A stretch of DNA of 64,000 nucleotides. It comes from Capsulimonas corticalis. Lineage in GTDB: Bacteria; Armatimonadota; Armatimonadia; Armatimonadales; Capsulimonadaceae. Positions 12,188-55,878 of this stretch are shown here, in pieces. A program made the position numbers and the translations under genes. Position 1 is the stretch's first letter. Each line of letters begins with the position of its first letter. The stretch covers positions 6,386,001 through 6,450,000 of the forward strand of contig NZ_AP025739.1 in NCBI RefSeq assembly GCF_003574315.2. Reading direction: 5' to 3'. Below the pieces are notes generated by a model, which was given only the letters and a program-made list of their open reading frames with translations, was not told where the DNA came from and searched no databases.

Positions 12188-13701
12188 TGCCACGCGCCCG
12201 CCGGCTTCCCTGTCTTCAGCCAGTCACTGACATACTGAGTCTTCAAACCAAGTTCCTCACTCGGCCAGGTTGCCATGAGCTGGAGGTGACCGATCGGGAC
12301 ACGGTTCGCCAGGTACAGCGAGTTGCCCGCCTCGGCCCACTGGAGCCAGAAGGCGACGTCGCTGTCCACGCGCCCGTCGCCCCAGCGGCCGGCGTCGTCG
12401 GGCCGGGCATGGAACCAGGGACGCGGCAGGCGGCGCAGCGCGTCCACGCGGATCATCGTCAGGCCAAAATGGCCGGTTCGGATCTTCAGAACGTCCGTCT
12501 CGAAACGTGAATAATCGATCTCGGTTGCGCTCTTGCCGTCGTCGCCTTCCACGGTAAAGAGCGAATGATCGTTCTCGCGCCGGATCTGGACCGGGCAAAG
12601 CGCGTCAATGTCGGGCCGCGCTTCCATGACGCCATACAGCGTCCGCACATCCTCAGCGGTGAAAAGCGAATCATAATCGATCGCCAGGAGATACTTCGTC
12701 CCGTCGTCCATATGGCTTTCGAAGACGCGTGTCATCCCCTGGTCCCAGAATACGCCGCCGCTCTGCTCGAAGCTGATCGGATGGGCGCAGACGGCGCGGA
12801 TAATGCAGAACTGCGTGTCCGTGAAGCCAAGGCGCGGTACGGTAGCCACGGCCGCGACGTCGCCGGGCTTGATGACGATGGAGGCAAAGCGCAAATCCGG
12901 ACCTGATGATGCTTTCACGCTGTCCTGTGGAACTGTCTTAACATCAGCGACATGATCTAGAATTGAGCAATGGACCACACAAAGATTGCCTTCATTCTCC
13001 CAATACACTTTGACGCAATTGGGGTGCTTTTCGTAGATCTCCAAGACATCGCCAAAGCCGTTTCCACAGTCGCCGGAATTGTCCCAAACTTGATCGCCCA
13101 CAGCAAACCCGTGTGGGTTCTCTATTCGTCCAGGAGCAGGATTATTGATCGATGAATAATCCGCCGGAAGAGGTTTCATCCCCACCAGGTTCAGCGAAAC
13201 GGGAAGCGAGGCGCAGTCCGCGACTTCGGAATCCCATGTGTAGATGTTGACCAGTCCCAGATGCTCCATTGCCGCGCGCAGGCTCTGCTCATCAAAAATG
13301 GCGCCGTGGTGATCATTATCATCCACATGCCCGCCCATCAGATACCCTTCCAGCGGAAGCGCGGCGGCGGCGGAATTGGTGAGGGATTCGAGGTAGCGCC
13401 TTGCGATCCATTCGAAGTTCGGGACGGCGACACAGAGAAGCCCGCCCGGCTTCAAGACGCGAACCCAGTCGGCCAGGACCGCCATCGTCTCGCGATGGCT
13501 GAAATGCTCCAACACGTGTGAGGCGCGCACGCCGCAGACGCTTTCATCATCGAAAGCCAGTGGGTAGACTTCGCCGCGCCAGAGAATGGTGTCTTCGTCC
13601 ACGTGAAGGACATCCTTTTCGTATTTGCGGTCGATATTGATGTGGCCGCGAAGTGGAAGATCCCCAGAGCCTAGATTCAAAAGGAGGTTTTGAGGATTCA
13701 T
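12184..13701 (-). CDS. Methyltransferase - glycosyltransferase-like fusion
   Basis: 505 residues from ATG 13701 (ATGA overlap with the upstream gene). Residues 1-165 are a class I SAM-dependent methyltransferase: LLLNLGSGDLPL (motif I), INIDRKYEKDVLHVDED, VRASHVLEHF and VLKPGGLLCVAVPN. Residues 190-270 form a beta-rich linker (FAVGDQVWDNSGDCGNGFGDVLEIYEKH). Residues about 275-500 look like a GT-A glycosyltransferase or related domain (TKYLLAIDYDSLFTAEDVRTLY, with an acidic D-Y-D). Such enzymes may modify virion proteins or surface glycans; the target is unknown. The centre carries one copy of the dispersed GATCGAT palindrome. Confidence 0.65.
   Translation of the reverse strand: MNPQNLLLNLGSGDLPLRGHINIDRKYEKDVLHVDEDTILWRGEVYPLAFDDESVCGVRASHVLEHFSHRETMAVLADWVRVLKPGGLLCVAVPNFEWIARRYLESLTNSAAAALPLEGYLMGGHVDDNDHHGAIFDEQSLRAAMEHLGLVNIYTWDSEVADCASLPVSLNLVGMKPLPADYSSINNPAPGRIENPHGFAVGDQVWDNSGDCGNGFGDVLEIYEKHPNCVKVYWENEGNLCVVHCSILDHVADVKTVPQDSVKASSGPDLRFASIVIKPGDVAAVATVPRLGFTDTQFCIIRAVCAHPISFEQSGGVFWDQGMTRVFESHMDDGTKYLLAIDYDSLFTAEDVRTLYGVMEARPDIDALCPVQIRRENDHSLFTVEGDDGKSATEIDYSRFETDVLKIRTGHFGLTMIRVDALRRLPRPWFHARPDDAGRWGDGRVDSDVAFWLQWAEAGNSLYLANRVPIGHLQLMATWPSEELGLKTQYVSDWLKTGKPAGAWQ
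13141..13160. repeat. Dispersed GATCGAT palindrome, copy 1
   Basis: ATTATTGATCGATGAATAAT, inside the methyltransferase-glycosyltransferase gene where it encodes YSSINN. Identical to the copy at 45291 in the ParB-fusion gene. One base departs from perfect symmetry. Confidence 0.7.
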
Positions 13702-20289: not shown

Positions 20290-21864
20290 CTACATCAACT
20301 TGAAAACGCGTTTCTTTTTGCTCATGCGCCGGAGCGCCTGCGTGAGTGCGTCTACATCGTCGTCTTTGGCGGCGTTTGGGAATGCTGTCAGCCGGTCGAG
20401 GGTTACCTTGATCCATGGATAAAGCGCAGGGTGCGGAAGATACACATTTCCGGACTCGCACATCGGAGTGACGGCATGAGCGCGGGAGACTTTATCACCT
20501 TCGGGTTCGATAGGGATGAGCCCCGGGATCTCTTTTTTCAGCGAGGAAATTACCGCAGGTCCGTTTGCCTTATCCTCAACGAGTTTCGCGAGCGCCAGCG
20601 GCCACTTCTCCGTCATCGCGCGAACGGCCGCGATCGTGGCCGTGAAATCCATGCGTTCACAAACTTGATCGAGCAGGAAGCAATCGGCTTTGACCTGAGC
20701 CCAGACCTGCCCGGCGACGAAGTCCGCGCCCTTGCTGTCTTTGAACGACATATCCCAGGACTGGAGGAGTGTTTCAAATCCCTCAGGGATCTCGATGACG
20801 GGGCTGTCAAAGAATGAGCCGTCCTCCAGGACAATGGTAATCGGCGGGAGTTTGCCGAGCAGACCTTTGGGAACCCAGTAGCGCCACCAATGGCTTTTGA
20901 AGATGATGCCGGCGGCGGGTCGCGGCGACTGCTGATGCTGCCCGGCAAAATCCGTTTCGCCCAGATCCTTTTTCAGCTGACTGAGTACTTGCTTCGTGAA
21001 CATCTCCGGGAACAAGAGATCCCCATGCTCAGTCCGCGGATCTGACCAGAATTCAGTGCGCATTTCGTCTTCGCCATCATTAAGATCATTATCCTTGGAG
21101 AAGATGAATGTACGCGAACGGCGCTCCGGCTCAAATTCCGACGGCAGGCAAAGATGCTCGAAGCCGCCCTTCGCAAGTATATGTCCGGACAGATCTTCTT
21201 CATGCAAACGCTGCATGATCACGACGCGCTTGCCGCCACGCGGATCATTGATCCGCGTGGGCATCACTTTGTCCCACCAGAAGATGCACTCGTCGCGGGT
21301 CGCCTTCGAATGCATTTCCTTGGCGTTCAAAGGGTCGTCGACCACGATCTTGTTTCCGCGAAAACCAGTAGCGCGGCCGCCGACGGACATCGAAAACCGA
21401 AAACCGGTCTTATCGTTCTGAAACCAGGACTTAACGTTCTGGTCGCCCTTCATTTTCCAGTCCGGCTCGAACCACTCCTGGTACCAGTCGGAAGTGATCA
21501 GGTCTCGGCAACGAACGCTATCACGGATTGCAAGATCCACGGCGTAGGACGAGAATAGAGAGCGTTCGCGCGGATTTTGGATCCATTCCCATGCCGGCCA
21601 GAAGACACTAACTAGGAGCGACTTCATATGCCCGGGTGGGATATTAATGAGCAGGTCACGGATGTGACCTAAAGTCACCGCCTCCAGATGATCACAGATA
21701 CAGTCCACATGCCAGTTGTTGATCAGCGGCATTCCCGGCTCAATGATGTGCCATGAATGCTGAACAAAGTCACGCAGATGCGCGCGGCATGCGGCTATAT
21801 CACGCCGACGTCGCTCCGCTCGGATTTGTGCCGGTGTCCAGATCTCCAGAGCCGGCTTCGGCAT
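20290..21864 (-). CDS. terL: Terminase large subunit
   Basis: 524 residues from ATG 21864. N-terminal packaging ATPase: Walker A-like PPGHMKS at 76-82, Walker B IVVDDP at 173-178. C-terminal RNase H-type nuclease: LQSWDMSF supplies the first Asp, DKANG and the acidic cluster DDDVDAL the others. It cuts concatemers and pumps DNA into proheads via the portal. The first 65 bases overlap the small-subunit gene. Belongs to the Terminase_6-like type. Confidence 0.9.
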   Translation of the reverse strand: MPKPALEIWTPAQIRAERRRRDIAACRAHLRDFVQHSWHIIEPGMPLINNWHVDCICDHLEAVTLGHIRDLLINIPPGHMKSLLVSVFWPAWEWIQNPRERSLFSSYAVDLAIRDSVRCRDLITSDWYQEWFEPDWKMKGDQNVKSWFQNDKTGFRFSMSVGGRATGFRGNKIVVDDPLNAKEMHSKATRDECIFWWDKVMPTRINDPRGGKRVVIMQRLHEEDLSGHILAKGGFEHLCLPSEFEPERRSRTFIFSKDNDLNDGEDEMRTEFWSDPRTEHGDLLFPEMFTKQVLSQLKKDLGETDFAGQHQQSPRPAAGIIFKSHWWRYWVPKGLLGKLPPITIVLEDGSFFDSPVIEIPEGFETLLQSWDMSFKDSKGADFVAGQVWAQVKADCFLLDQVCERMDFTATIAAVRAMTEKWPLALAKLVEDKANGPAVISSLKKEIPGLIPIEPEGDKVSRAHAVTPMCESGNVYLPHPALYPWIKVTLDRLTAFPNAAKDDDVDALTQALRRMSKKKRVFKLM

Positions 21865-22444
21865 AGATGCTTTCAAGCAATTTGAACCTCTCCTCGCTGA
21901 GCTTTGAGAGCTCCACCGGCGGTTCGTTCTTGAGAGCGATCGCGCCGCCATCCTTGCCTGTCAGTTCGCGCCGGTTCGTATAAGCGCCGCCGCGCTCTTC
22001 CGCCGCCTGCTTTGCCGCCTGGAGGAGAAGGACGTCGTTCCCGTTGATTTCGCAGCGATCGACAACTGACTGGATCTTTTGGAGCCGCACAGCGGGATTC
22101 GCGATCGGGATGTCGTCAAGGCGGTCCAGGTACCGAGCTCGTCGCTCGAAAAACAAAGCCTTCAGCGCTTCCGCCATTTCCTTTTCGCCCTGCACCGTGT
22201 TAGGGTTGTAGCGATTGATCGTCGCCTTCGGCACATCCCGTCCGAACAAATCCATAATCTCGGAGCGTATCTCTGTTGGCCCAGCGTACTGCGCCAACCG
22301 GTCGATGATATAAGTAACGATATCTGATGGCAGCGTTTTGGGACCTGGCACGGTGGAAGCCGACACCTTCGGCGAGTCGGCTTTCGCCACACCCCCCTTG
22401 GCCGCCACCGGCGGCTTCGCCGCATCTTTCCTAGGTCGTCCCAT
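21800..22444 (-). CDS. terS: Terminase small subunit
   Basis: 214 residues from ATG 22444 with AGGTG upstream. A Lys/Pro/Ala-rich disordered start precedes an HTH-like block (DIVTYIIDRLAQYAGPTEIRSEIMDLFGRDVPKATINRYNPN) likely binding the packaging site, then helices for oligomerisation (FERRARYLDRLDDIPIANPAVRLQKIQSVVDRCE). It overlaps terL, the usual arrangement. Confidence 0.75.
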   Translation of the reverse strand: MGRPRKDAAKPPVAAKGGVAKADSPKVSASTVPGPKTLPSDIVTYIIDRLAQYAGPTEIRSEIMDLFGRDVPKATINRYNPNTVQGEKEMAEALKALFFERRARYLDRLDDIPIANPAVRLQKIQSVVDRCEINGNDVLLLQAAKQAAEERGGAYTNRRELTGKDGGAIALKNEPPVELSKLSEERFKLLESIYAEAGSGDLDTGTNPSGATSA

Positions 22445-25415: not shown

Positions 25416-25435
25416 ATTATTGATCGATCAATAAT
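25416..25435. repeat. Dispersed GATCGAT palindrome, copy 2 (perfect)
   Basis: ATTATTGATCGATCAATAAT, a perfect 20-bp palindrome two bases from the CCA end of the tRNA-Asp-like gene. Intergenic. Best copy of the five. Confidence 0.75.
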
Positions 25436-25437
25436 TC

Positions 25438-25514
25438 TGGGGCCCGCGGGCCGCTGTGAGCAACCATCTTCCCGATGACAAATCGGGCGCTCTACTATAT
25501 TGAGCTACGCAGGC
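25438..25514 (-). tRNA. tRNA-Asp (GTC)
   Basis: 77 nt including an encoded CCA. All four arms fold: acceptor GCCTGCG with CGCGGGC (one G-U), D-arm GCTC/GAGC, anticodon stem CCCGA/TCGGG with loop TTTGTCA (anticodon GTC), 5-nt variable region, T-stem with two G-U pairs. The T-loop CTCACAG departs from the usual TTCRANY, so function may be altered. Confidence 0.8.
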
Positions 25515-25586
25515 ATAAATGATTCCGGTTACCAGGAACGGCCCGCGAAGTCCGTCACTCCGGATTGCACTTTTCATGCAAGGCGC

Positions 25587-25665
25587 TGGTCCGAGGGGAA
25601 GGATTTGAACCCCCGACCTCACGGTTTTCAAGGCCGTGCGCTCTACCAGGCTGAGCTACCCAAGG
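25587..25665 (-). tRNA. tRNA-like gene, anticodon TGA (Ser) with short variable arm
   Basis: 79 nt including encoded CCA. D-arm GCTC/GAGC and T-arm GGGGG-TTCAAAT-CCTTC are normal. The anticodon arm is CACGG...CCGTG with either a 9-nt loop or a sixth C-A pair and the 7-nt loop CTTGAAA (anticodon TGA). Acceptor CCTTGGG with CCCTCGG has two mismatches. A serine tRNA should have a long variable arm; this one has about 5 nt, so identity is uncertain and it may be degenerate. Confidence 0.6.
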
Positions 25666-38172: not shown

Positions 38173-38649
38173 TCAATCCTTTCCCGCCCACGAATCGACT
38201 TCCGCCCAGTCGTAAGCCGCCCAGAGAATCCCAGAGGCGTTAGCCCCGCGCGCCCACATGATTTCAAAAACTCGCTGATCGTATTGATCGATCAATAATC
38301 GCGCAACGTTGGATCGGTGGCATGTCTCCGCGTTCCGGCACCCACACATCAAAATCACGGAATGCGGATGCTCAAGGACATACTGCGCTCCGGCGGCGGC
38401 GTCGACCAATTCGATCTGGCGGCTTCCGTCCGCGTTCGCGGGCTCCCGGTAGCGCTTATTGCCAAGCTGCACGCAGCGCGCATAACGATCGCCGAGAAAC
38501 TCGCGAAGGGCTCCATGCCGCCATTGCGGATGCGCGCTCCAGGCGCGGTACCGGATGTCCACAATCGTCGCGTCCAGGCGCTCCGCGATCATCAATAGGT
38601 CCGCCGGCTTGCGTCCCTCGTAGCCCATCGTGTAGACCGTAGGCGTCAT
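38173..38649 (-). CDS. DUF488 family protein
   Basis: 158 residues from ATG 38649 (ATGA overlap with the gene upstream). Starts PTVYTMGYEGRKPADLLMIAERLDATIVDIRYRAWSAHPQWRHGALREFLGDRYARCVQLGNKRY and contains VILMCGCRNAETCHRSNVA, both DUF488 hallmarks (VDIR, LGN, C-x-C...CHR). Function in phages unknown; possibly nucleic-acid related. A dispersed palindrome lies in its 3' end. Confidence 0.8.
   Translation of the reverse strand: MTPTVYTMGYEGRKPADLLMIAERLDATIVDIRYRAWSAHPQWRHGALREFLGDRYARCVQLGNKRYREPANADGSRQIELVDAAAGAQYVLEHPHSVILMCGCRNAETCHRSNVARLLIDQYDQRVFEIMWARGANASGILWAAYDWAEVDSWAGKD
38280..38299. repeat. Dispersed GATCGAT palindrome, copy 3
   Basis: CGTATTGATCGATCAATAAT; the inner 16 bases are a perfect palindrome. 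Lies within the DUF488 gene (encodes LLIDQYD). Shares the 17-base core with all other copies. Confidence 0.65.
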
Positions 38650-40686: not shown

Positions 40687-41166
40687 TTAATTCCTATATT
40701 CGAGAATATGAAGGCCTGCTTTCGTGAAACCGCAGAAACTCCATCCGGCCATCTTGAAGCAGTATCCAGGGTTTGCGCTCTGTACTTTCTCCGCGTTGAC
40801 GAAGGTGAAGAACCGTTGCGGTTTCCATTTCACTACCGCCGCTTCCACTGCCTCGCGGATCATCAAACTGGACTGCACGGATCCTTCATTGCGGAATACG
40901 CTGCACTCCACGCCCCACTGGTCGTCTTTGCGAAACTCCTCGCTGCGCCAGACGAATAGCGCGTCACCGGTCGCGGTGATCAGTGTCATGTCCTCGCCGG
41001 GCCCCGCGATTCCGGAGGTATAGTGCGTATCCTTAGGCTTCGGGCAGCTATAATGCCGCTGGAAGAGCGGAACTACATTCACATCGCAGCTTTTGGCTCG
41101 GTACCAGTGATCTGAGACGCGGACCAGTCCGCTCTCCGCCGGCGTGAAAAGCGCGGCGGTTCTCAC
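40687..41166 (-). CDS. GNAT-fold protein, possibly Mom-like
   Basis: 159 residues. LFQRHYSCPKPKDTHYTSGIAGPGEDMTLIT, then FRNEGSVQSSLMIREAVEAAVVKWKPQRFFTFVNAEKVQSANPGYCFKMAGWSFCGFT, has the acetyltransferase-like order of a HYS motif, a central strand-helix unit and a final Gly-Trp strand, resembling Mu Mom in layout. Its start overlaps the end of the Dam-like gene. Mom modifies adenine and is tied to Dam methylation in Mu, so co-location is suggestive. Family identity is inference. Confidence 0.5.
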   Translation of the reverse strand: MRTAALFTPAESGLVRVSDHWYRAKSCDVNVVPLFQRHYSCPKPKDTHYTSGIAGPGEDMTLITATGDALFVWRSEEFRKDDQWGVECSVFRNEGSVQSSLMIREAVEAAVVKWKPQRFFTFVNAEKVQSANPGYCFKMAGWSFCGFTKAGLHILEYRN

Positions 41167-42053
41167 GCTCTCACCTCGAGCTCTAAAGATTGCTGACCAC
41201 GGGCCTGGGCCGCAGCAGGATTAAGCCACAGAGATTCCATGCGCGTTGCGCTTCCGGTATTGCTCGCGATCACGCCGGCGCGGTCACATCGGATCCAGTT
41301 GTTGAAGATCTCATCGTAAAGGTCGCATCGATATCCGCTCACGATCACCATTGCCGCGCTCGAGCTCAGGGCCGCCGCCATGGTTCGGTGATCGTCATCG
41401 GTCATCTCATGCGCGTACGCTTTCTCCCCTGGCCAGCGTAGCGAAGACCTGGTGCTGCGCACATAGGGAGGATCGCAATAAAGCAGCGTCTCGGGAGTGG
41501 AGTGCGATTGAACGAGTTCAATCGCACTCCGGTTCTCGATCGTCACGCCGCGCAGCCGCTGCACCACGGCTGGCAGCGCGGCCGGCAATCCCGCCCAGTC
41601 CGCCGCCGGCGTCATGTAGGAGCGGTAGGCATAGGATCGAAATCCTGTTTTGCTACCCTTGCCCGACGCACTGGACGAAAAACCCATGAAAGACCGGACC
41701 ATCAGGCGGCGAGCGCGCTCCACGGGATCCAGGATATTGCGATCGTAAGCGGTGTCGAATTCGGCGCGCGCGAACGGCGTCAGGCGGATCGCATTGATCA
41801 GATCCTTCGCGGCCGCCGGTTCGCGCAGCACGCGGAACAGATTGACGACCTCCCCGTCCAGATCGTTGATCACCTCGCCGAAGGCGCGCGGCTTCTGGAG
41901 AAGGACGGACGCGGCTCCGCAATACGGCTCGACGTAAACGCGATGAGGCGGCATTTGGCTGATGATCCACGACGCAAGACGCCATTTCCCACCGTGATAT
42001 CTCAGGACAGGGCGTCGGCATTTGGCGTCTGCGTTCATGAGATCTGATTTCAT
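41163..42053 (-). CDS. DNA adenine methylase (Dam / D12 class)
   Basis: 296 residues from ATG 42053 (ATGA overlap with the C5 methylase). RYHGGKWRLASWIISQMPPHRVYVEPYCGAASVLLQKP is the start of D12 enzymes with motif I; LLYCDPPYVRSTR gives the DPPY catalytic motif. GATC-type or related target is likely but unproven. Would protect phage DNA or alter gene control. Confidence 0.9.
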   Translation of the reverse strand: MKSDLMNADAKCRRPVLRYHGGKWRLASWIISQMPPHRVYVEPYCGAASVLLQKPRAFGEVINDLDGEVVNLFRVLREPAAAKDLINAIRLTPFARAEFDTAYDRNILDPVERARRLMVRSFMGFSSSASGKGSKTGFRSYAYRSYMTPAADWAGLPAALPAVVQRLRGVTIENRSAIELVQSHSTPETLLYCDPPYVRSTRSSLRWPGEKAYAHEMTDDDHRTMAAALSSSAAMVIVSGYRCDLYDEIFNNWIRCDRAGVIASNTGSATRMESLWLNPAAAQARGQQSLELEVRA

Positions 42054-43924
42054 ACAGCCACCGCCATCAACGTCTTGAAGATCGTTGTGCAAAGCGCCTC
42101 TGCGGTCGCAACAGGAACCGCATTGCCAATCTGCTTGATTTGCGCCTCGCGCGTCCCGGTGAAAATATACGACTTCGGAAATCCCTGGCCGCCAGCGAGC
42201 TCGTGCGGCTGGAGCATCCGGTAAAGAATGTCGAGGTAGCCGACGACGTCGCCTTTGTCGATCAAGTGATGATATTCGGGCGCCACCAGGGCGAACCGGT
42301 CGTTCCCCGTCGCGGAGAGCAGCGGCTCGTCCACCGAATGCGCGCCGCCGGTCCCGTTATAATTGATCAGGAATGGCGTATGTTGTCGGATTACAAGATT
42401 AGGCTCAGCGATACCCAGGCAATTCGAAGTGTCGAGAGCAGGGAGCGGCGAGCCAACCGAAAGTACGCGCCCATCACCGTCGTTTCGCCCCTGGTGCGAG
42501 CCATGATATTTCGTCATGAACGCCGGCATCGTCTCGTTCCATTCAGGAACAGTTTCGATCAGCGCCAGATGTTCATAATTCGAGGTGACCGCTGGCAGCG
42601 GGGCGTCGAGCGAGGCGGCGTCACTTCCTTCGTAATATTTCACGAGGAAGGCGTTAACCGAGTCGGTTACGATCTGAGGCTCCGCAACTCCCATGATGTT
42701 ACCGGTCGTCAGCGCGCGCATGGGAACATCCATCGGATGTGCGTCCGCATTCTTGCGATTGACCACCATATAGGGCTCCAGTAACGCCAGTTCCCCACGT
42801 TTGGCTCCAGTAACGGTGAAGAGCGGCTTATCCACGCCCCGGCATCGATTCCCGGATCCCGTGTGCGTGATCGGCGCGATGTAGGGCTCGGCGACACCGA
42901 ACTGCCGGCGCGTCATGATCGTTGGGAACGGTTTCTCCAGGCTGTAACCATCACGATGGTTCTGGAGCACGACGAGAAACGGCTGGCAGATCGCTCCGGC
43001 GCCGTGGCTGGTGACGGCGGACAATGGCGAATAAATCGAGTGCGTACGCGGCTGCTGCCCTTCTCGCTCCCCGAAATTCGGAACAAGGAATGGCAATCCC
43101 GCGAATTTGTAAACACCGGCGTGGATGCGCTTCATCGTCGCGGCAACGAGGTTTTTTTTGCCCTGAGCCGGCCGATCGTAGATCGATGTGCCCTTCAGTT
43201 TCCAGTCGATGATGTCACGGGCGACAAGCTGAGCCTTCTTCCCTGGACGCGACGCGACTTCAGCGGCGGGAACGTGCGTAATTTCCGGCCAGGCAGGCGC
43301 GATACCGCCGAGCCGGGCCTGGATGAACAGGCGTTTGCGGCTGGTTGGATCGCCATATTCGCAGCAGGTAAGCACCTTGAATTCGACGGTATAGCCAAGC
43401 TCCTCCAAGTTGCGGATAAAGTTTCGGAAGAAGCGGCCTTCCTCTTCTTTGATCGGCTTCCCGATCAAGCAGGATTTCAGGTGCTCAGCGCCTTCCTCCA
43501 CCCCACAAGTGCAGGGATGAAGCGGCCCCCATTTCTGGAATTCCGGCACGTTCTCAATCAAGATGTGGTGAACATACAGCGCGTCTGCCCATCGAAGGAT
43601 GTCCCAGGCGCTTGATCGCTTTTGTTCGCTCTTGGGCTTACCCCCGCGCGCATTGGAGTGATGGGTGCATTCCGGCGCCGCGCAAAGAAGATGGACAATC
43701 CCGCCTGGGACAAGCTCGCGAGGATTGGCGCCGTCCACCGGAGCGCAAATATGTGTGGCCTCTGGATGATTGAGCGTATGCGAATCGATCGCGACTGGCC
43801 AGTGGTTGATCGCGAGAAGCGCCGCCGTATAGCCAACCTTCTTGGCGGCATTGCGCAGACCTTGACTGATCCCGCCGGCCCCGCAAAAGAGATCCACGCA
43901 AACAAATGGCTTCTTAGGAGTCAT
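42050..43924 (-). CDS. DNA cytosine-5 methyltransferase with long internal repeat region
   Basis: 624 residues. Motif I VDLFCGAGGISQGL; motif VI ENVPEF (124-129); motifs IX-X at the C-terminus (HELAGGQGFP, KQIGNAVPVATAEALC). The motif IV catalytic Pro-Cys is replaced by APECTHHS, with Cys86 after Pro-Glu; this PEC form occurs in some phage enzymes. Residues about 260-560 are a target domain with degenerate repeats of the type aPhsvDePLpavTs. Larger than typical M.HpaII-type enzymes. Confidence 0.85.
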   Translation of the reverse strand: MTPKKPFVCVDLFCGAGGISQGLRNAAKKVGYTAALLAINHWPVAIDSHTLNHPEATHICAPVDGANPRELVPGGIVHLLCAAPECTHHSNARGGKPKSEQKRSSAWDILRWADALYVHHILIENVPEFQKWGPLHPCTCGVEEGAEHLKSCLIGKPIKEEEGRFFRNFIRNLEELGYTVEFKVLTCCEYGDPTSRKRLFIQARLGGIAPAWPEITHVPAAEVASRPGKKAQLVARDIIDWKLKGTSIYDRPAQGKKNLVAATMKRIHAGVYKFAGLPFLVPNFGEREGQQPRTHSIYSPLSAVTSHGAGAICQPFLVVLQNHRDGYSLEKPFPTIMTRRQFGVAEPYIAPITHTGSGNRCRGVDKPLFTVTGAKRGELALLEPYMVVNRKNADAHPMDVPMRALTTGNIMGVAEPQIVTDSVNAFLVKYYEGSDAASLDAPLPAVTSNYEHLALIETVPEWNETMPAFMTKYHGSHQGRNDGDGRVLSVGSPLPALDTSNCLGIAEPNLVIRQHTPFLINYNGTGGAHSVDEPLLSATGNDRFALVAPEYHHLIDKGDVVGYLDILYRMLQPHELAGGQGFPKSYIFTGTREAQIKQIGNAVPVATAEALCTTIFKTLMAVAV

Positions 43925-43928
43925 GGAT

Positions 43929-46412
43929 TTAGAAGCCCTCCGACTGTGTGGCGCGTGTCAGCACGATGGAGCTCAGGCGCTCGGACAGATTGATATTTTC
44001 AGCATGGTTTTCGTTATAGGCGTCCGTAAGCATGCGAAGCGCATTCTTGGCCTTTGGGACAAGGCGGTATTCGAGCAGCTCCGCAATTGCCTGATCCGCC
44101 GTCAGACCCATTTCCCAGAGCGCGTCCGTGCTGTCCTTTGAGAGTGTCACGGTGCGGTCATCGGTCTGATCGGCAGCCTGCGCCCCCTGCATCGATGCTC
44201 GAACGCCGTCACGAATGTTCACCATCGTCGCCGCGCTGAGCGGACAATGGTGGCAAATCGAGGGGATATCCTCTCCGATCAGCACCTCGACCGGCCCGGT
44301 CGGTGTAGCGGCCTCCGGTACTGAGGCTGCCTGTGCGTCCACTGTGTCATGTGGTGCAGATGATCGTACTTCGCAAGGCGCGTCGTCCGCAGATGATGAA
44401 GCTGGCGCGTCTTCGTGCGCTGCATGCTCAGTCGCTCCAGCAGCGGCCACCACCGGCACGGGATCTCCGGACGAAAATACGTCCTGTGCGACCATCTCAT
44501 GACTGCCATCAATTTCCTCCTCGTTGCTATTTGGGGATCGTTCTGACATTGCCGGCGCCGGAGGCGCTTCGACTTCGGCGGCGGGGATCGGTCCCGGCTC
44601 AGAGAAGACGGTGGCCGAAATTGTTGGCGCCACCACATTGAAGTAGGGAGACGCGGCCGAGCGCTGAAGGTCGGCGATATGATCGGTAATTACCTGATCC
44701 AATTTGCTGACGGACCAGGACGCGGCGAAAGCGTCTCCAGCGAACTTGATCATCGACGCTTCGGTCCCCTGTAGCTTACGCAGCTTCAGCAATTTGAAAC
44801 CGTGCGTGGCGGAGATGCGCCCGTGGCGAAGATGATCCTGGACACTTTCAGGAAGCGTGAGTAAGTTCAGCGTTTGACTGATGGAAGATTGATCGACGCC
44901 AGTCTCCGCCTCAATTTCCGCCTGTGTCTGACCGAGTTTCACGCGGTTCGCATATCCACGAGCGCGCTCCAGGGGATTGAGAGGCTCACGCTCATCGTTT
45001 TCGGCCGTCGCGATACGCGCCATCTGCAAATCATCGTAGACAGCGACTTCAGCGCGCAATGAAGCAAGTCCCGCGATCTTCGCCGCGCGGAAGCGCCGCT
45101 CGCCGCAGGCGATCTCGAACTTGCCGGCGTCTTTTGCGGCATGGCGGACGACAATCGGCTGGAGTTGCTTGTTTATGGTCAGGCTGCGCGCCAGGTCCTC
45201 CAGCGGTTTTTGAGCGAATATGTCACGCGGCTGAAAAGGATTGGGAAGGAGATTCTCAAGCGGAATATCTTGCGTGTCAGGGCCGACAGCATTATTGATC
45301 GATGAATAATTCTCAGAGCCTGACGAATTATTTTCGATGCGCGCTTCTCCCACGGATGTGACCAGTGTCAAGACAGGAGCCGCCGGCTTATTCAGAACGA
45401 TGATCTTCGTGCTGACGGCCGTCTTCTTATCGCTCTCCAGGAAGGAGCCGTGGGGAACTTCGAACGCCTCGCCGTCATTGACCCGGAACCACTGCTGGAA
45501 GAGCGATGCCTTCTTATCGGACCGAAAGAACGCGCCGTCGGACATCACGGATACAAGGCGCCCGCCCGGCGCCAGCAACTCATACGCGTGACGGACATGA
45601 TCGATATCGACGCCGCGCTCGAACGGTGGATTGCAGACAAATCGATCGAAGAGCTCTTCCGAGCGCCATTCGAGGAAATCGGACCCCGCAATCGGATAAC
45701 CTTTGGCCGATAAGATCTCGCGAAGCTGAAGGTTGATCTCAATCACCGTGAGCGGGACGTCGGGATGTTCGGCGCGGATCCGGTCGGCGATATGGCCGCT
45801 GCCTGCCTGGGGCTCGCACGTCCTCATTCCCGCTTCGATCTCGGCAAGCTCCAAAAGGCGCGTCACCAATCCGTCCGGCGTCGGGAAGTAGCCGGGGATG
45901 TTGACGCCGACCAGCCCGCGCATCAGCTTGCGCAACTTCAGTGCTTCTTTCGATTCCCCGCCGGCGTCCTCGGCGGCGGCCTCCAGAATCTTCTTCGCTT
46001 CATCAAAATCCGCTGCGGTCGCGATGCCAGCAGCGAGTAGTCGCCCCTGCTCGCTGCTGGATCCGATCCAGTCCGGGAACTTCGTATTGAAGAGAATGTT
46101 TTCGATGACCGACTTCGTCTTGATTCGGGAGACGACCAGAGGAACCGTGCCAGCGTCGTGGGCATCCGCCAGATATTGCAGTGATGCCTGGACGCGCTGC
46201 ATCCGCTTCGCGTCGCGCTCGGCATCCTCCGCCTCACGGATACGCTTGGGTGTGTTGGCAAGGCGAGGGGCAAGCTTGACATCGATGGCCGCCTGCATCC
46301 CGTTCGCCAGAACGCGCAGTTTGTCGGAGATCTTCAGATCCTCGCCTTCGCCGGCCTCTCTTGGCGCGAGTTGACCGACTGTCTGAATTTTAGTATCGAT
46401 TTCAGCAAGCAT
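43929..46412 (-). CDS. N6-methyltransferase - ParB fusion
   Basis: 827 residues from ATG 46412. Residues about 170-340: methyltransferase with CEPQAGSGHIADRI (motif I) and CNPPFERGVDI (NPPF motif IV). A linker (345-380) holds a dispersed palindrome (YSSINN). Residues 383-560: ParB/Noc domain, GERRFRA (437-443), NDEREPLNPLERA and an HTH (ETGVDQSSISQTLNLL). A disordered acidic section and a C-terminal Cys motif (CHHCPLS) with helices complete it. No ParA is nearby. May bind the dispersed palindromes; inference. Confidence 0.8.
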   Translation of the reverse strand: MLAEIDTKIQTVGQLAPREAGEGEDLKISDKLRVLANGMQAAIDVKLAPRLANTPKRIREAEDAERDAKRMQRVQASLQYLADAHDAGTVPLVVSRIKTKSVIENILFNTKFPDWIGSSSEQGRLLAAGIATAADFDEAKKILEAAAEDAGGESKEALKLRKLMRGLVGVNIPGYFPTPDGLVTRLLELAEIEAGMRTCEPQAGSGHIADRIRAEHPDVPLTVIEINLQLREILSAKGYPIAGSDFLEWRSEELFDRFVCNPPFERGVDIDHVRHAYELLAPGGRLVSVMSDGAFFRSDKKASLFQQWFRVNDGEAFEVPHGSFLESDKKTAVSTKIIVLNKPAAPVLTLVTSVGEARIENNSSGSENYSSINNAVGPDTQDIPLENLLPNPFQPRDIFAQKPLEDLARSLTINKQLQPIVVRHAAKDAGKFEIACGERRFRAAKIAGLASLRAEVAVYDDLQMARIATAENDEREPLNPLERARGYANRVKLGQTQAEIEAETGVDQSSISQTLNLLTLPESVQDHLRHGRISATHGFKLLKLRKLQGTEASMIKFAGDAFAASWSVSKLDQVITDHIADLQRSAASPYFNVVAPTISATVFSEPGPIPAAEVEAPPAPAMSERSPNSNEEEIDGSHEMVAQDVFSSGDPVPVVAAAGATEHAAHEDAPASSSADDAPCEVRSSAPHDTVDAQAASVPEAATPTGPVEVLIGEDIPSICHHCPLSAATMVNIRDGVRASMQGAQAADQTDDRTVTLSKDSTDALWEMGLTADQAIAELLEYRLVPKAKNALRMLTDAYNENHAENINLSERLSSIVLTRATQSEGF
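45291..45310. repeat. Dispersed GATCGAT palindrome, copy 4
   Basis: ATTATTGATCGATGAATAAT, identical to copy 1 and encoding the same YSSINN peptide, here in the linker between the methyltransferase and ParB domains. Confidence 0.7.
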
Positions 46413-46414
46413 GG

Positions 46415-46924
46415 TTATCGCCAGTCTCCGTTCTTGCCAGCCGGACGGGTGCCGCATTTGAACGAGCGGATCGCGGAGACTTCGGGACGGCGGCAGGAGG
46501 TCGGAAGTTCGACGAAGACGGGGCCCGCAACTTTCTGCGCATCCTCTTCGGAGACCGGCTCCGCGATCTCAACCATCAGCGTCAGCGCCGACTGCTCCTC
46601 GCGCCAGGCGGCGAGGCGCGCTTTGTGCGACCGGTTCTCCCACGGCGCCACGGCGAAGATCAGCGCCTGGATCAGGAACCCCGCCGCGAGCCAGTAGAAG
46701 AGTGCGCCGCCGGCGAGGCCACAAGCGGCCGAAAGCGCGAGCGAGCATCCCGCCAGACAGTACATCACGCGGTCGCTGAACGCGATATGCGCGAAAACAT
46801 CCGGCGAGCTCTGAATTGAGCGAACCATGACCAGATGCGGCGACTCGGTCTTTGGCGCATTCGATTTTGAAAAATCGGTCTCCGATAAATCCGATTTTTC
46901 GAGTGAGGGATCCAGGAACTCCAT
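46415..46924 (-). CDS. Two-span membrane protein
   Basis: 169 residues from ATG 46924, GGAG upstream (ATG 46936 is possible). Two adjacent membrane spans (VMYCLAGCSLALSAACGLAGGALFYWLAAGFLIQALIFAVA). Flanks polar; C-terminus faces the cytoplasm or outside unclear. Ends two bases before the MTase-ParB ATG. Function unknown. Confidence 0.55.
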   Translation of the reverse strand: MEFLDPSLEKSDLSETDFSKSNAPKTESPHLVMVRSIQSSPDVFAHIAFSDRVMYCLAGCSLALSAACGLAGGALFYWLAAGFLIQALIFAVAPWENRSHKARLAAWREEQSALTLMVEIAEPVSEEDAQKVAGPVFVELPTSCRRPEVSAIRSFKCGTRPAGKNGDWR

Positions 46925-46960
46925 CGCGATCTCCATTTTCTCGGCCGCTCGGCCGGTGCG

Positions 46961-51881: not shown

Positions 51882-51901
51882 AATATTGATCGATCAATAA
51901 T
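51882..51901. repeat. Dispersed GATCGAT palindrome, copy 5
   Basis: AATATTGATCGATCAATAAT, intergenic, directly after the 51881 stop and 30 bases before the -10 box of the cargo operon. One base departs from perfect symmetry. Confidence 0.7.
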
Positions 51902-53764: not shown

Positions 53765-55342
53765 ATGACCACGAGGAAACAAGTCCACCTTTCCTTCACC
53801 CCGCTTCGGTACTGCATTTACCGCCGCGTCAGCAAAGAAAGCCAGGTCGAGCGCGATCTCTCCCTTCCCGAGCAGGAAGCGCAGCAGATCGCCTATGTCG
53901 CGGCGCGCGGCGGCGTGGTCACGCACAACTTCCAGGACGGAGGTATCAGCGCCTGGGGAGAGAAGGGCGATCAGCGCGCCGAGTTCCAAAAGGCGATCAC
54001 CTGCGCCAAGGCCGGCGAGTACGATGTCTTTCTAATCCATAAATCCGATCGCGTTTTTCGGTACCGTACGCACGCTGTTACATACAAGCATCTCCTCAAG
54101 CAATATGGCGTGAAGGTGGAAAGCGTCACCGAGCCATGGGTGGGCGGGGACGATCCCTCCGAGAAGCTGATCGAAGGCGTTATGGAGTGCGTCTCGGAAT
54201 TTCACAGCGATAATCTTTCGACGGAACTCAAAAAGGGAATCCACAGCGCGGCCGCCAATAAAGGTCGCCAGCACGGTCCGCCCGTCTATGGTTACCGTTA
54301 TGCCGAGCCCGGCGTGCGCGGCGCCGGCTGGGCGCTCGACGATGAGGCCGCGCGCTGGGTCAAATGGATATTCGAGACGTACGTCGGACAGCGCGCCATG
54401 CTCGTCGATCTCGCCCGGCAGCTGAACGCCATGAAGATCCGTCCACCCGGCACGAACGGCGCGCGCCGCAACGTTTACCTCGACGGCTGGCAGGCGCAAA
54501 CGATCTCCCACATGCTCCGAAACATCGTCTATACCGGCCAGTGTAAATTGAATGGCGATGTCTTTCCCGGCGCCCATCCGGCCATCATCACCGCCGAGAC
54601 CTTCGCCCAGGCCCAAATCCTCGTAGAGGCCCGCCGCCCTGGGAAGATCTCGGAGATTGACGCCATGTTCGCCGGCGGTCTCCTGCTCTGCCCGCACTGC
54701 GTCGAAGCAGGACGCAAGAGCGTCCTGCACACCCATATCCGCAGTCCAAAAACGGGCAAGCGCGAAGCCTGCTACGTCTGCTCCGTTCGCATGGGAATGT
54801 ACCGCGCGAAGGGATCCGGACTTGCCCCATCGCAGGAGTGTCCGGGTTTCAACATCATGGAGGGTAAGATTAGGCGAATGGTTATTGAAAGCCTGGAACG
54901 GATCCGGAACGAGGGCGGGATCGTGGAACTGCTCGCCGAGCATCCACATCTCGCCGAACGCCTCCTGGAGCCGCCGCCGCTTGAGGCGCCGTCCCCGCAC
55001 CCCGACCCGCAAATCATACGCAAAGAGCTTGACCTGATCCCAACACGCATCATGGCCCTCTCCGATCAGAACCAGCGCGGCTACATTACGCTCGATCAGA
55101 TGGGAAACGCCATCGCCGAAATCGAGCGCACGAAGACACTGCTGCTGGAGCAGCTCGCGATCGCCGAGACCGCGCGTCCACTGAAGCTCCTGAAGCCTTT
55201 CGACGCCCATCGCCTGCTCGTGATGATCCAGAGCAATCAGCACACCACCGAGGAAAAGCGCGCATTCCTTCAGGATTGGCTTGCTGGGATCCTGGTTTCC
55301 GCTGACAAAAAGTTGGTGGATTTCCGCATTCCTCAGCTGTAG
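53765..55342 (+). CDS. Large serine integrase
   Basis: 525 residues. Resolvase domain 16-150 with catalytic Ser23 (YRRVSKES) and KSDRVFRYR; recombinase domain from about 165 (HGPPVYGYRYAEPG); zinc ribbon (LLCPHC...CYVCSV) and a C-terminal coiled coil (NAIAEIERTKTLLLEQLAIAET) as in phage serine integrases. No Shine-Dalgarno. Adjacent to the truncated phage B capsid gene, matching the att site position. Confidence 0.9.
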   Translation: MTTRKQVHLSFTPLRYCIYRRVSKESQVERDLSLPEQEAQQIAYVAARGGVVTHNFQDGGISAWGEKGDQRAEFQKAITCAKAGEYDVFLIHKSDRVFRYRTHAVTYKHLLKQYGVKVESVTEPWVGGDDPSEKLIEGVMECVSEFHSDNLSTELKKGIHSAAANKGRQHGPPVYGYRYAEPGVRGAGWALDDEAARWVKWIFETYVGQRAMLVDLARQLNAMKIRPPGTNGARRNVYLDGWQAQTISHMLRNIVYTGQCKLNGDVFPGAHPAIITAETFAQAQILVEARRPGKISEIDAMFAGGLLLCPHCVEAGRKSVLHTHIRSPKTGKREACYVCSVRMGMYRAKGSGLAPSQECPGFNIMEGKIRRMVIESLERIRNEGGIVELLAEHPHLAERLLEPPPLEAPSPHPDPQIIRKELDLIPTRIMALSDQNQRGYITLDQMGNAIAEIERTKTLLLEQLAIAETARPLKLLKPFDAHRLLVMIQSNQHTTEEKRAFLQDWLAGILVSADKKLVDFRIPQL

Positions 55343-55353
55343 TGCGAAAAATA

Positions 55354-55878
55354 TTAACTCCCTCGACGCCACCTGAAATCCCCAGCTTGAACAGCTAAAA
55401 TCACCACTCCGCGCCGCGACCAATCAACTTGATGTATTCGGTAATGCACATTGGTGCCGGTGCTCATGAAATCACGCGCGAGCTGATCGATCGTTTGTCC
55501 GGCCTGGAAGCCGAGGATATCGGCCGCCTGAGTCAGAATGGGATCGATCGCCGACCACGTCAGCACGTCCGAGACCTGAATAAAGTCTCCGTACTGCGCG
55601 ATGCCTACCGTCACCGGCGTTACCGTCAAGTTGTTGCCCGTCGGCGTAACGCCTTCGGAGAGCGGCGAAGTCGCGGGACTCAGCAGCTCAAAACGCCGCA
55701 TCTGCATGGTCGTTCCGGCGTTCTTGTCAATCGGCCGATCGTCCGCAAACTGCGCGTGGATCAAATTTGGGCGCGCCGCCTTGAGAAGCCGCCGATCATA
55801 CGCGATCCGCACTTCCGCCGGCAAGCTGCCGCCCGCGCCGGGAGTTGTCCCCGGTCCAAATACATGTGTCGTCGCCAT
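55354..55878 (-). pseudogene. Truncated N4gp56-type major capsid gene (phage B)
   Basis: 174 codons. RIAYDRRLLKAARPNLIHAQFADDRPIDKNAGTTMQMRRFELLSPATSPLSEGVTPTGNNLTVTPVTVGIAQYGDFIQVSDVLTW is a strong match to N4gp56 capsid proteins (usually 300 residues or more). Family sequence ends at TGTNVHY and is replaced by about 30 unrelated codons. The remainder is presumably beyond prophage A's other end. Confidence 0.8.
55415..55450. other. Probable attachment site (attR) junction
   Basis: On the minus strand the phage B capsid frame reads on-family to STGTNVHY (55460-55435), then changes to an unrelated tail that stops at 55354. The integrase stop is 93 bases away. Serine integrases act on short sites next to their gene, so the crossover is expected here. 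The other junction is left of the window. Confidence 0.6.

Follow-up and report, generated by a model that had tools for sequence, protein, structure and literature searches.

A prophage protein joining a DarB-type adenine methyltransferase to a ParB-type CTP clamp, with a set of candidate private loading sites

A prophage of Capsulimonas corticalis encodes, in one polypeptide, an adenine methyltransferase followed by a ParB CTPase domain and a ParB HTH, and the same prophage carries seven dispersed palindromes that look like the landing sites of this clamp, which would probably steer the enzyme to the phage's own DNA. We put at roughly 0.5 the probability that the protein is a Noc-like, ParA-independent ParB clamp delivering an adenine methyltransferase to its own phage DNA in cis. 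Specifically, the HTH would nucleate on the seven private 16-bp palindromes (TATTGATCGATSAATA) across the prophage, CTP would close the ParB domain, and the dimer would slide off along the adjoining phage DNA, where the tethered methyltransferase would modify adenines in cis. Loading at a palindrome, closure by CTP and subsequent sliding are established behaviour of ParB and Noc (PMC8429893). The benefit would probably be protection from host restriction through marking of the phage genome, either ahead of packaging or while it replicates, a task shared with the C5 and D12 methyltransferases encoded in the same apparent operon. From sequence and predicted folds we infer binding, CTP use, sliding, methylation and the anti-restriction role with differing assurance: the methyltransferase half is likely active on DNA, delivery in cis by sliding stands just short of even odds, and protection from restriction as the benefit is more tentative again. 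An earlier note on this DNA had suggested that the protein might load at specific sites and methylate while spreading; the seven private ParB/Noc-type palindromes and the intact motifs of clamp and methyltransferase give this idea as much support as sequence alone can offer.

The gene is a single uninterrupted reading frame, occupying 43929–46457 on the minus strand of the window (the whole 64,000-nucleotide stretch analysed, to which unprefixed positions refer) and encoding 842 amino acids. Of its two possible ATG starts, at 46457 and 46412, the latter comes 2 nt beyond the stop codon of the gene before it and is the more probable. The product of 827 residues, with the gene at 43929–46412, is the intact protein joining an N6-methyltransferase to ParB that the earlier note had described; residue numbers here follow the 842-residue version. 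From the N terminus, and all on the minus strand, the protein comprises an adenine methyltransferase of DarB/EcoKI/TaqI type that includes an N-terminal helical domain (residues 16–358; 45384–46412), a linker of mostly low pLDDT that contains one copy of the palindrome (359–395; 45273–45383), the ParB CTPase domain (396–487; 44997–45272), the ParB HTH (491–591; 44685–44987), a disordered segment rich in Ala, Pro, Ser and Glu (610–740; 44238–44630), and a C-terminal helical segment (741–842; 43932–44237). In the AlphaFold model, built on a 27-row alignment, both halves were predicted with high confidence and the linker and residues 610–740 were modelled as disordered. Residues 741–842 were modelled at low confidence, and a search for a canonical C-terminal dimerization domain gave no Pfam match in this region, which weighs somewhat against the clamp reading.

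With respect to the methyltransferase half, the motifs expected of EcoKI/TaqI-like adenine enzymes are present as FPTP (191–194), EPQAGSG (215–221) and NPPF (276–279), the last of which the earlier note had already mentioned. In Pfam the best match, MTS, falls just below the cut-off (E=1e-4), hence no confident assignment, and phage DNA-methyltransferase families match this half with E values down to 7e-71; its pLDDT is mostly >90. Relatives of the METHYLTRANSFERASE half are of two kinds, namely domains within giant phage proteins of 1,000–3,500 aa, including those of Salisaeta phage SIP1 (gp43, 54%), Pseudomonas phages F116 and LKA5, and Vibrio and Shewanella phages, and stand-alone proteins of 330–400 aa in phages and plasmids. 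Identity to the stand-alone and virion-polyprotein phage methyltransferases ranges from 35 to 54%. Residues 16–358 match the stand-alone relatives end to end, the domain stopping where those proteins stop, which indicates that a complete enzyme was joined to ParB. The single-stranded DNA methyltransferases M.EcoGIX and M.BceJIII were considered as relatives and ruled out, as they are beta-class enzymes with DPPY (PMC7736820).

DarB-type methyltransferases nearly always carry a C-terminal SF2 helicase, the presumed motor for their movement along injected DNA (PMC5512222). The fusion protein belongs to the same adenine methyltransferase family, and its matches include giant phage polyvalent proteins; it differs from these in that no C-terminal SF2/SNF2 helicase is present, the ParB domains standing there instead, and in that its gene, by position, is not a virion gene. 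The ParB clamp would thus take the place of the translocase usual in DarB-type phage enzymes. It is this position of the clamp, combined with the known sliding of ParB and Noc, that leads us to propose that methylation would be confined to DNA bearing the sites.

The ParB half, for its part, contains the boxes NPFQPR (406), LQPIVVR (432), GERRFRAAK (452) and AENDERE (485), corresponding to the NPxQPR, LQPIVVR, GERRFRA and ENxxR boxes of the family. Pfam assigns ParB_N (PF02195) to residues 396–487 (E=4e-19), in agreement with the ParB/CTPase-type domain with GERRFRA of the earlier note, and HTH_ParB (PF17762) to residues 491–591 (E=3e-15); the NCBIfam matches are Noc (E=5e-40) and parB_part (E=4e-38). 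In Foldseek the top match is Geobacillus Noc, followed by Caulobacter ParB, Bacillus subtilis Noc and Spo0J, with type I M subunits and M.TaqI appearing later, and the closest solved Noc/ParB folds are structures with CTP or CDP. The fusion protein is the only PF02195 protein in the element of about 100 kb. As first noted, no ParA lies near: the genome has five PF13614 places, all outside the prophage, and the ParA-binding motif [LFI]G[KR]G[LFI] is absent from the fusion, whereas the host ParB has LGRGL. In the viral contigs searched we found no close relative of the whole protein or of its ParB half.

Consistent with a Noc-like function, Noc is the top structural and NCBIfam match, and the two proteins share the CTP-clamp motifs and the lack of a ParA (PMC7383237, PMC8429893), together with dispersed 16-bp sites, candidate ones in the case of the fusion, with A at position 1 and a Gln at position 173 (PMC7383237). 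They differ in cargo, which in Noc is a membrane anchor and here is a methyltransferase, in the prophage location of the gene, and in the inner bases of the site. At the specificity positions equivalent to Caulobacter 173, 179, 184 and 201, the fusion has Q, T, T and T and shares only Q173 with the Q, K, K, R set of Noc; K179, K184 and R201 are missing.

The candidate sites are ATTATTGATCGATSAATAAT palindromes, seven of which are spread over 83 kb of the gene's own prophage of about 100 kb; the remaining 7.5 Mb of the genome contains two near-copies that match less well. Their consensus can be written TATT-GATCGATS-AATA. Five copies fall within the window: TATTGATCGATGAATA at 45293–45308, inside the fusion gene itself at linker residues 384–389, and at 13143–13158, also intragenic; and TATTGATCGATCAATA at 25418–25433 (intergenic, beside tRNA-Thr), at 38282–38297 (15 bp 5' of the ORF starting at 38267, within an overlapping ORF) and at 51884–51899 (intergenic). 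The remaining two lie 30.8 and 20.4 kb to the left of the window, at genome positions 6355152 and 6365616. Overall, four of the seven are intergenic and three intragenic, and those in the window are spaced 7–13 kb apart. Two tRNA genes of the prophage (Thr tgt and Ser tga) lie at 25438–25665, one of them directly adjoining a candidate site.

Several counts show how private this set is to the element. A palindrome scan returned three exact copies of TTGATCGATCAA in the window, and the 7,645,051-bp genome holds five, all inside 6355154–6437897; the reversed control sequence gave zero matches in the same genome. When up to three mismatches were allowed in an 18-mer, 11 places were found genome-wide, of which the seven with at most one mismatch are those in the element, which makes up 1.3% of the genome (P about 2e-11). 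Shuffled sequence never yielded more than two similar 16-bp palindromes, with the caveat that GC-rich low-complexity palindromes also recur in the region. Sites are absent from the stretches of the interrupted prophage on either side of the element and from 18 other genomes of the order. The viral contigs searched have none either, which precludes a comparison of sites across phages. The earlier note had pointed to GATCGAT sites as containing Dam-type targets. Two GATCs are indeed present in each site, and GATCGAT occurs 15 times in the in-window part of the prophage, the relevant element being the longer palindrome ATTATTGATCGATSAATAAT; the neighbouring D12 enzyme is only a possible GATC methylase, its score against TIGR00571 being far below the cut-off.

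Does the ParB half read these sites? In ParB and Noc, residue 173 reads base 1 of the site, Arg specifying G (parS) and Gln specifying A (NBS) (PMC7383237). We checked this rule on the ParB loci of the order (18 relatives), within roughly 3.5 kb of each locus. A TGTTTCACGTGAAACA-type palindrome (TGTT...AACA) lies near 11 of 12 Arg-type chromosomal ParBs, TATT-N8-AATA lies near the Gln-type ParBs in four of five genomes, and orphan ParBs with Glu at the equivalent position have neither frame nearby. The fusion has Gln at this position and the element's palindrome has the TATT...AATA frame, as the rule predicts. In Caulobacter ParB, Gln173 needed Lys at 179/184 (PMC7383237), and the fusion HTH is without Lys at these positions and differs at several other DNA-contact positions too. 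These differences may fit the unusual inner bases of the site; they are not evidence for binding. Taken together, these observations make it probable that the ParB half binds the candidate palindromes, and the assignment of the sites to the fusion protein is strong but not proven, since a second prophage has similar dispersed palindromes and no detectable ParB.

That second prophage, at about 36–76 kb of the genome, contains seven dispersed TATTCCGCGCGGAATA palindromes (36678–71042), and it also holds one full copy of the element's site TATTGATCGATGAATA at 69151–69166. Even an unfiltered HMM search found no ParB in it, the best weak match being a Mu-F-like protein, and a palindrome array alone therefore does not prove a prophage ParB. 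The TATTCCGCGCGGAATA sites resemble the parS of relatives (TATTCCACGTGGAATA) and so could be read by a host-type ParB; it is possible that they serve such a protein or another reader. The chromosomal parB of the organism itself has copies of TATTCGCCGGCGAATA just downstream and others nearby, and canonical parS, tried as a site, has no copy in the genome at up to two mismatches. Two further ParB-like genes, at 4.51 and 1.80 Mb, have no sites of either the TATT or the TGTT frame around them.

These comparisons also bear on the chromosomal proteins. R173 has been called absolutely conserved in extant ParB (PMC7383237). The chromosomal ParBs of the host family (genome 1538813–1539751; loci L001 and L006–L009) have Gln at the 173-equivalent position and a parS-like TATT-N8-AATA, and the sister family retains Arg and the canonical TGTTTCACGTGAAACA, which looks like a natural parS switch between the two families. 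The switched ParB of the organism's own genome has an adjacent ParA and the LGRGL motif.

In its neighbourhood, the fusion gene is one of a group of methyltransferase genes. A C5-cytosine DNA methyltransferase gene (42050–43924, minus strand) lies 4 nt 3' of it and is overlapped by a gene for a D12-class adenine DNA methyltransferase (41163–42092, minus strand); the 5' neighbour in the same apparent operon (46415–46936, minus strand) has no family match. PADLOC, run on ten proteins in and around the operon in search of a restriction endonuclease partner, found only methyltransferases. With a further gene at genome 6363030–6363794, the element has at least four DNA methyltransferases. It also encodes a capsid protein, a terminase (20290–21951, about 22 kb from the fusion gene), a protease, a helicase loader and, at its right end, a serine recombinase (53765–55342, plus strand), and a DNA polymerase III alpha-type gene (phrog_405; genome 6346188–6349415) appears to belong to it. 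The right-hand 55 kb of the element lie in the window and about 44 kb extend to its left. The ends are marked by the split major-capsid gene of another prophage, into which the element is inserted: the N-terminal half is at genome 6441827–6441441 (the window-side half, 55354–55878) and the C-terminal half at 6341733–6341218, about 100 kb apart. The split may mean that one phage has disabled another, or it may be an interruption that is regulated.

Proteins of this kind are already known. Fusions of a ParB-CTPase fold with a DNA methyltransferase have been published from prophages (PMC12704722), 36 such enzymes were described in Paracoccus prophages (PMC6536676), and Bce_0392 is a ParB–methyltransferase fusion cited in PMC5512222. 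A proposal that ParB-like proteins steer modification to sites on the virus genome is relayed in PMC6536676. Like the published prophage fusions, the present protein combines the two folds in one prophage protein without ParA. The Paracoccus enzymes carry ParB at the N terminus and are encoded just ahead of the terminase. In the present protein ParB stands at the C terminus together with an HTH_ParB, the methyltransferase is of DarB type, and the gene is grouped with other methyltransferase genes at a distance from the terminase; a set of candidate sites has been identified as well. As far as our searches extend, what is new is the combination of a DarB-type enzyme with a complete C-terminal CTPase-HTH clamp, a private site set and a site in the linker.

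Moreover, the pairing of these two activities seems, from its sequence distribution, to have arisen more than once, as indicated by an independent fusion and by adjacent or nearby separate genes elsewhere. The 80 best viral loci include no case of a canonical ParB sharing an ORF with the methyltransferase, and two giant proteins have weak, distant ParB-like stretches. One of 80 genome loci has the same arrangement, a 754-aa protein on an Oscillibacter prophage contig in which a DarB-type methyltransferase is followed by ParB_N and then HTH_ParB; it differs in its shorter N terminus and its HTH residues, and identity is 27%. Viral relatives of the Oscillibacter protein mostly have the methyltransferase and ParB homologues as separate genes, and 394 genomes of that order gave no further fusion of its kind. 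A Peregrinibacteria protein of 2,321 aa contains a methyltransferase, a helicase and a weak ParB; on one viral contig the two are separate genes 1.8 kb apart; and on a Streptomyces plasmid they are adjacent, with a C5 methyltransferase further downstream. On viral contig L048 (4968–8620) consecutive genes encode a stand-alone methyltransferase, a DNA polymerase III beta-like protein, a DUF488-like protein and a canonical ParB, and a ThiF-like gene follows at some distance, an order that by eye is suggestive of a PRTRC-like cassette. The short stretches covered beside the Oscillibacter, L048 and Streptomyces plasmid genes contain no repeated palindromes.

In terms of alternatives, the main rival is silencing of the type carried out by KorB of plasmid RK2, in which the clamp would slide from dispersed sites to silence prophage genes as a long-range regulator and the methyltransferase, by methylating the GATC-rich sites, would modulate either the protein's own binding or promoters. 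KorB is among the Foldseek matches of the fusion. It is a CTP clamp of the ParB family, has several 16-bp operators, and can keep plasmid promoters silent over distances of up to 1.5 kb from an operator (PMC11790492). Four of the seven sites being intergenic, some of them just 5' of genes, would suit such a role, as would the adenine methylation possible on GATCGATC. KorB, however, has no methyltransferase and acts with KorA; three sites lie within genes, the window sites are 7–13 kb apart and thus far beyond 1.5 kb, and a silencer would leave the complete methyltransferase active site unexplained. We regard this reading as unlikely, though not negligible.

Temperate phages can have dispersed repressor sites, and the palindromes might accordingly be operators or stoperators of a phage repressor unrelated to the fusion, its ParB domain binding elsewhere. 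The second prophage would fit this account, as it has an analogous array and encodes a Cro/C1-type HTH protein but no ParB that could be detected. The account is weakened by the finding that in both prophages the intergenic regions adjoining the Cro/C1-type gene are free of sites, and the putative immunity intergenic region has none. The outer frame of the sites, moreover, agrees with the Gln-type ParB sites of the host family, and one copy is found where the fusion gene passes into its ParB part, with some ten codons between it and the ParB domain. A natural reading of this linker copy is that it was once an intergenic parS before a separate parB and was absorbed when the genes fused. We judge a repressor origin about as improbable as KorB-type silencing.

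Far less likely is a partition or incompatibility protein, whose ParB half would segregate a phage replicating as a plasmid with methylation as an accessory. The full ParB_N and HTH and the dedicated palindromes are compatible with this, and a ParABS system already present in a cell can be commandeered by parS-like elements (PMC10954446); the element, however, has no ParA, the fusion has no ParA-binding motif of the kind seen in the host ParB, and the host parS differs from the element's sites. With those sites scattered over 83 kb of an integrated prophage, the suggestion that methylation marks partition sites was not borne out. A chance or decaying fusion, in which read-through merged two neighbouring genes whose halves work, if at all, alone, is similarly improbable, for although the linker and tail are disordered and the collections searched hold no close relative, all motifs of both halves are kept over 842 codons and the Oscillibacter prophage has an independent fusion of the same two families.

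Many ParB-fold/methyltransferase fusions have been catalogued in prophages. The present case adds to such lists a complete CTP clamp with its HTH, named private sites and a residue-to-base rule for the outer bases, which together open to direct test the idea that the methyltransferase is targeted in cis by the clamp. We tentatively suggest, at somewhat less than the odds given to restriction avoidance, a form of self-marking in which a CTP-gated clamp replaces an ATP translocase and methylation is limited in cis to DNA with loading sites. If this is true, modification would owe its specificity to where the clamp loads and slides, and not to a recognition sequence of the methyltransferase.
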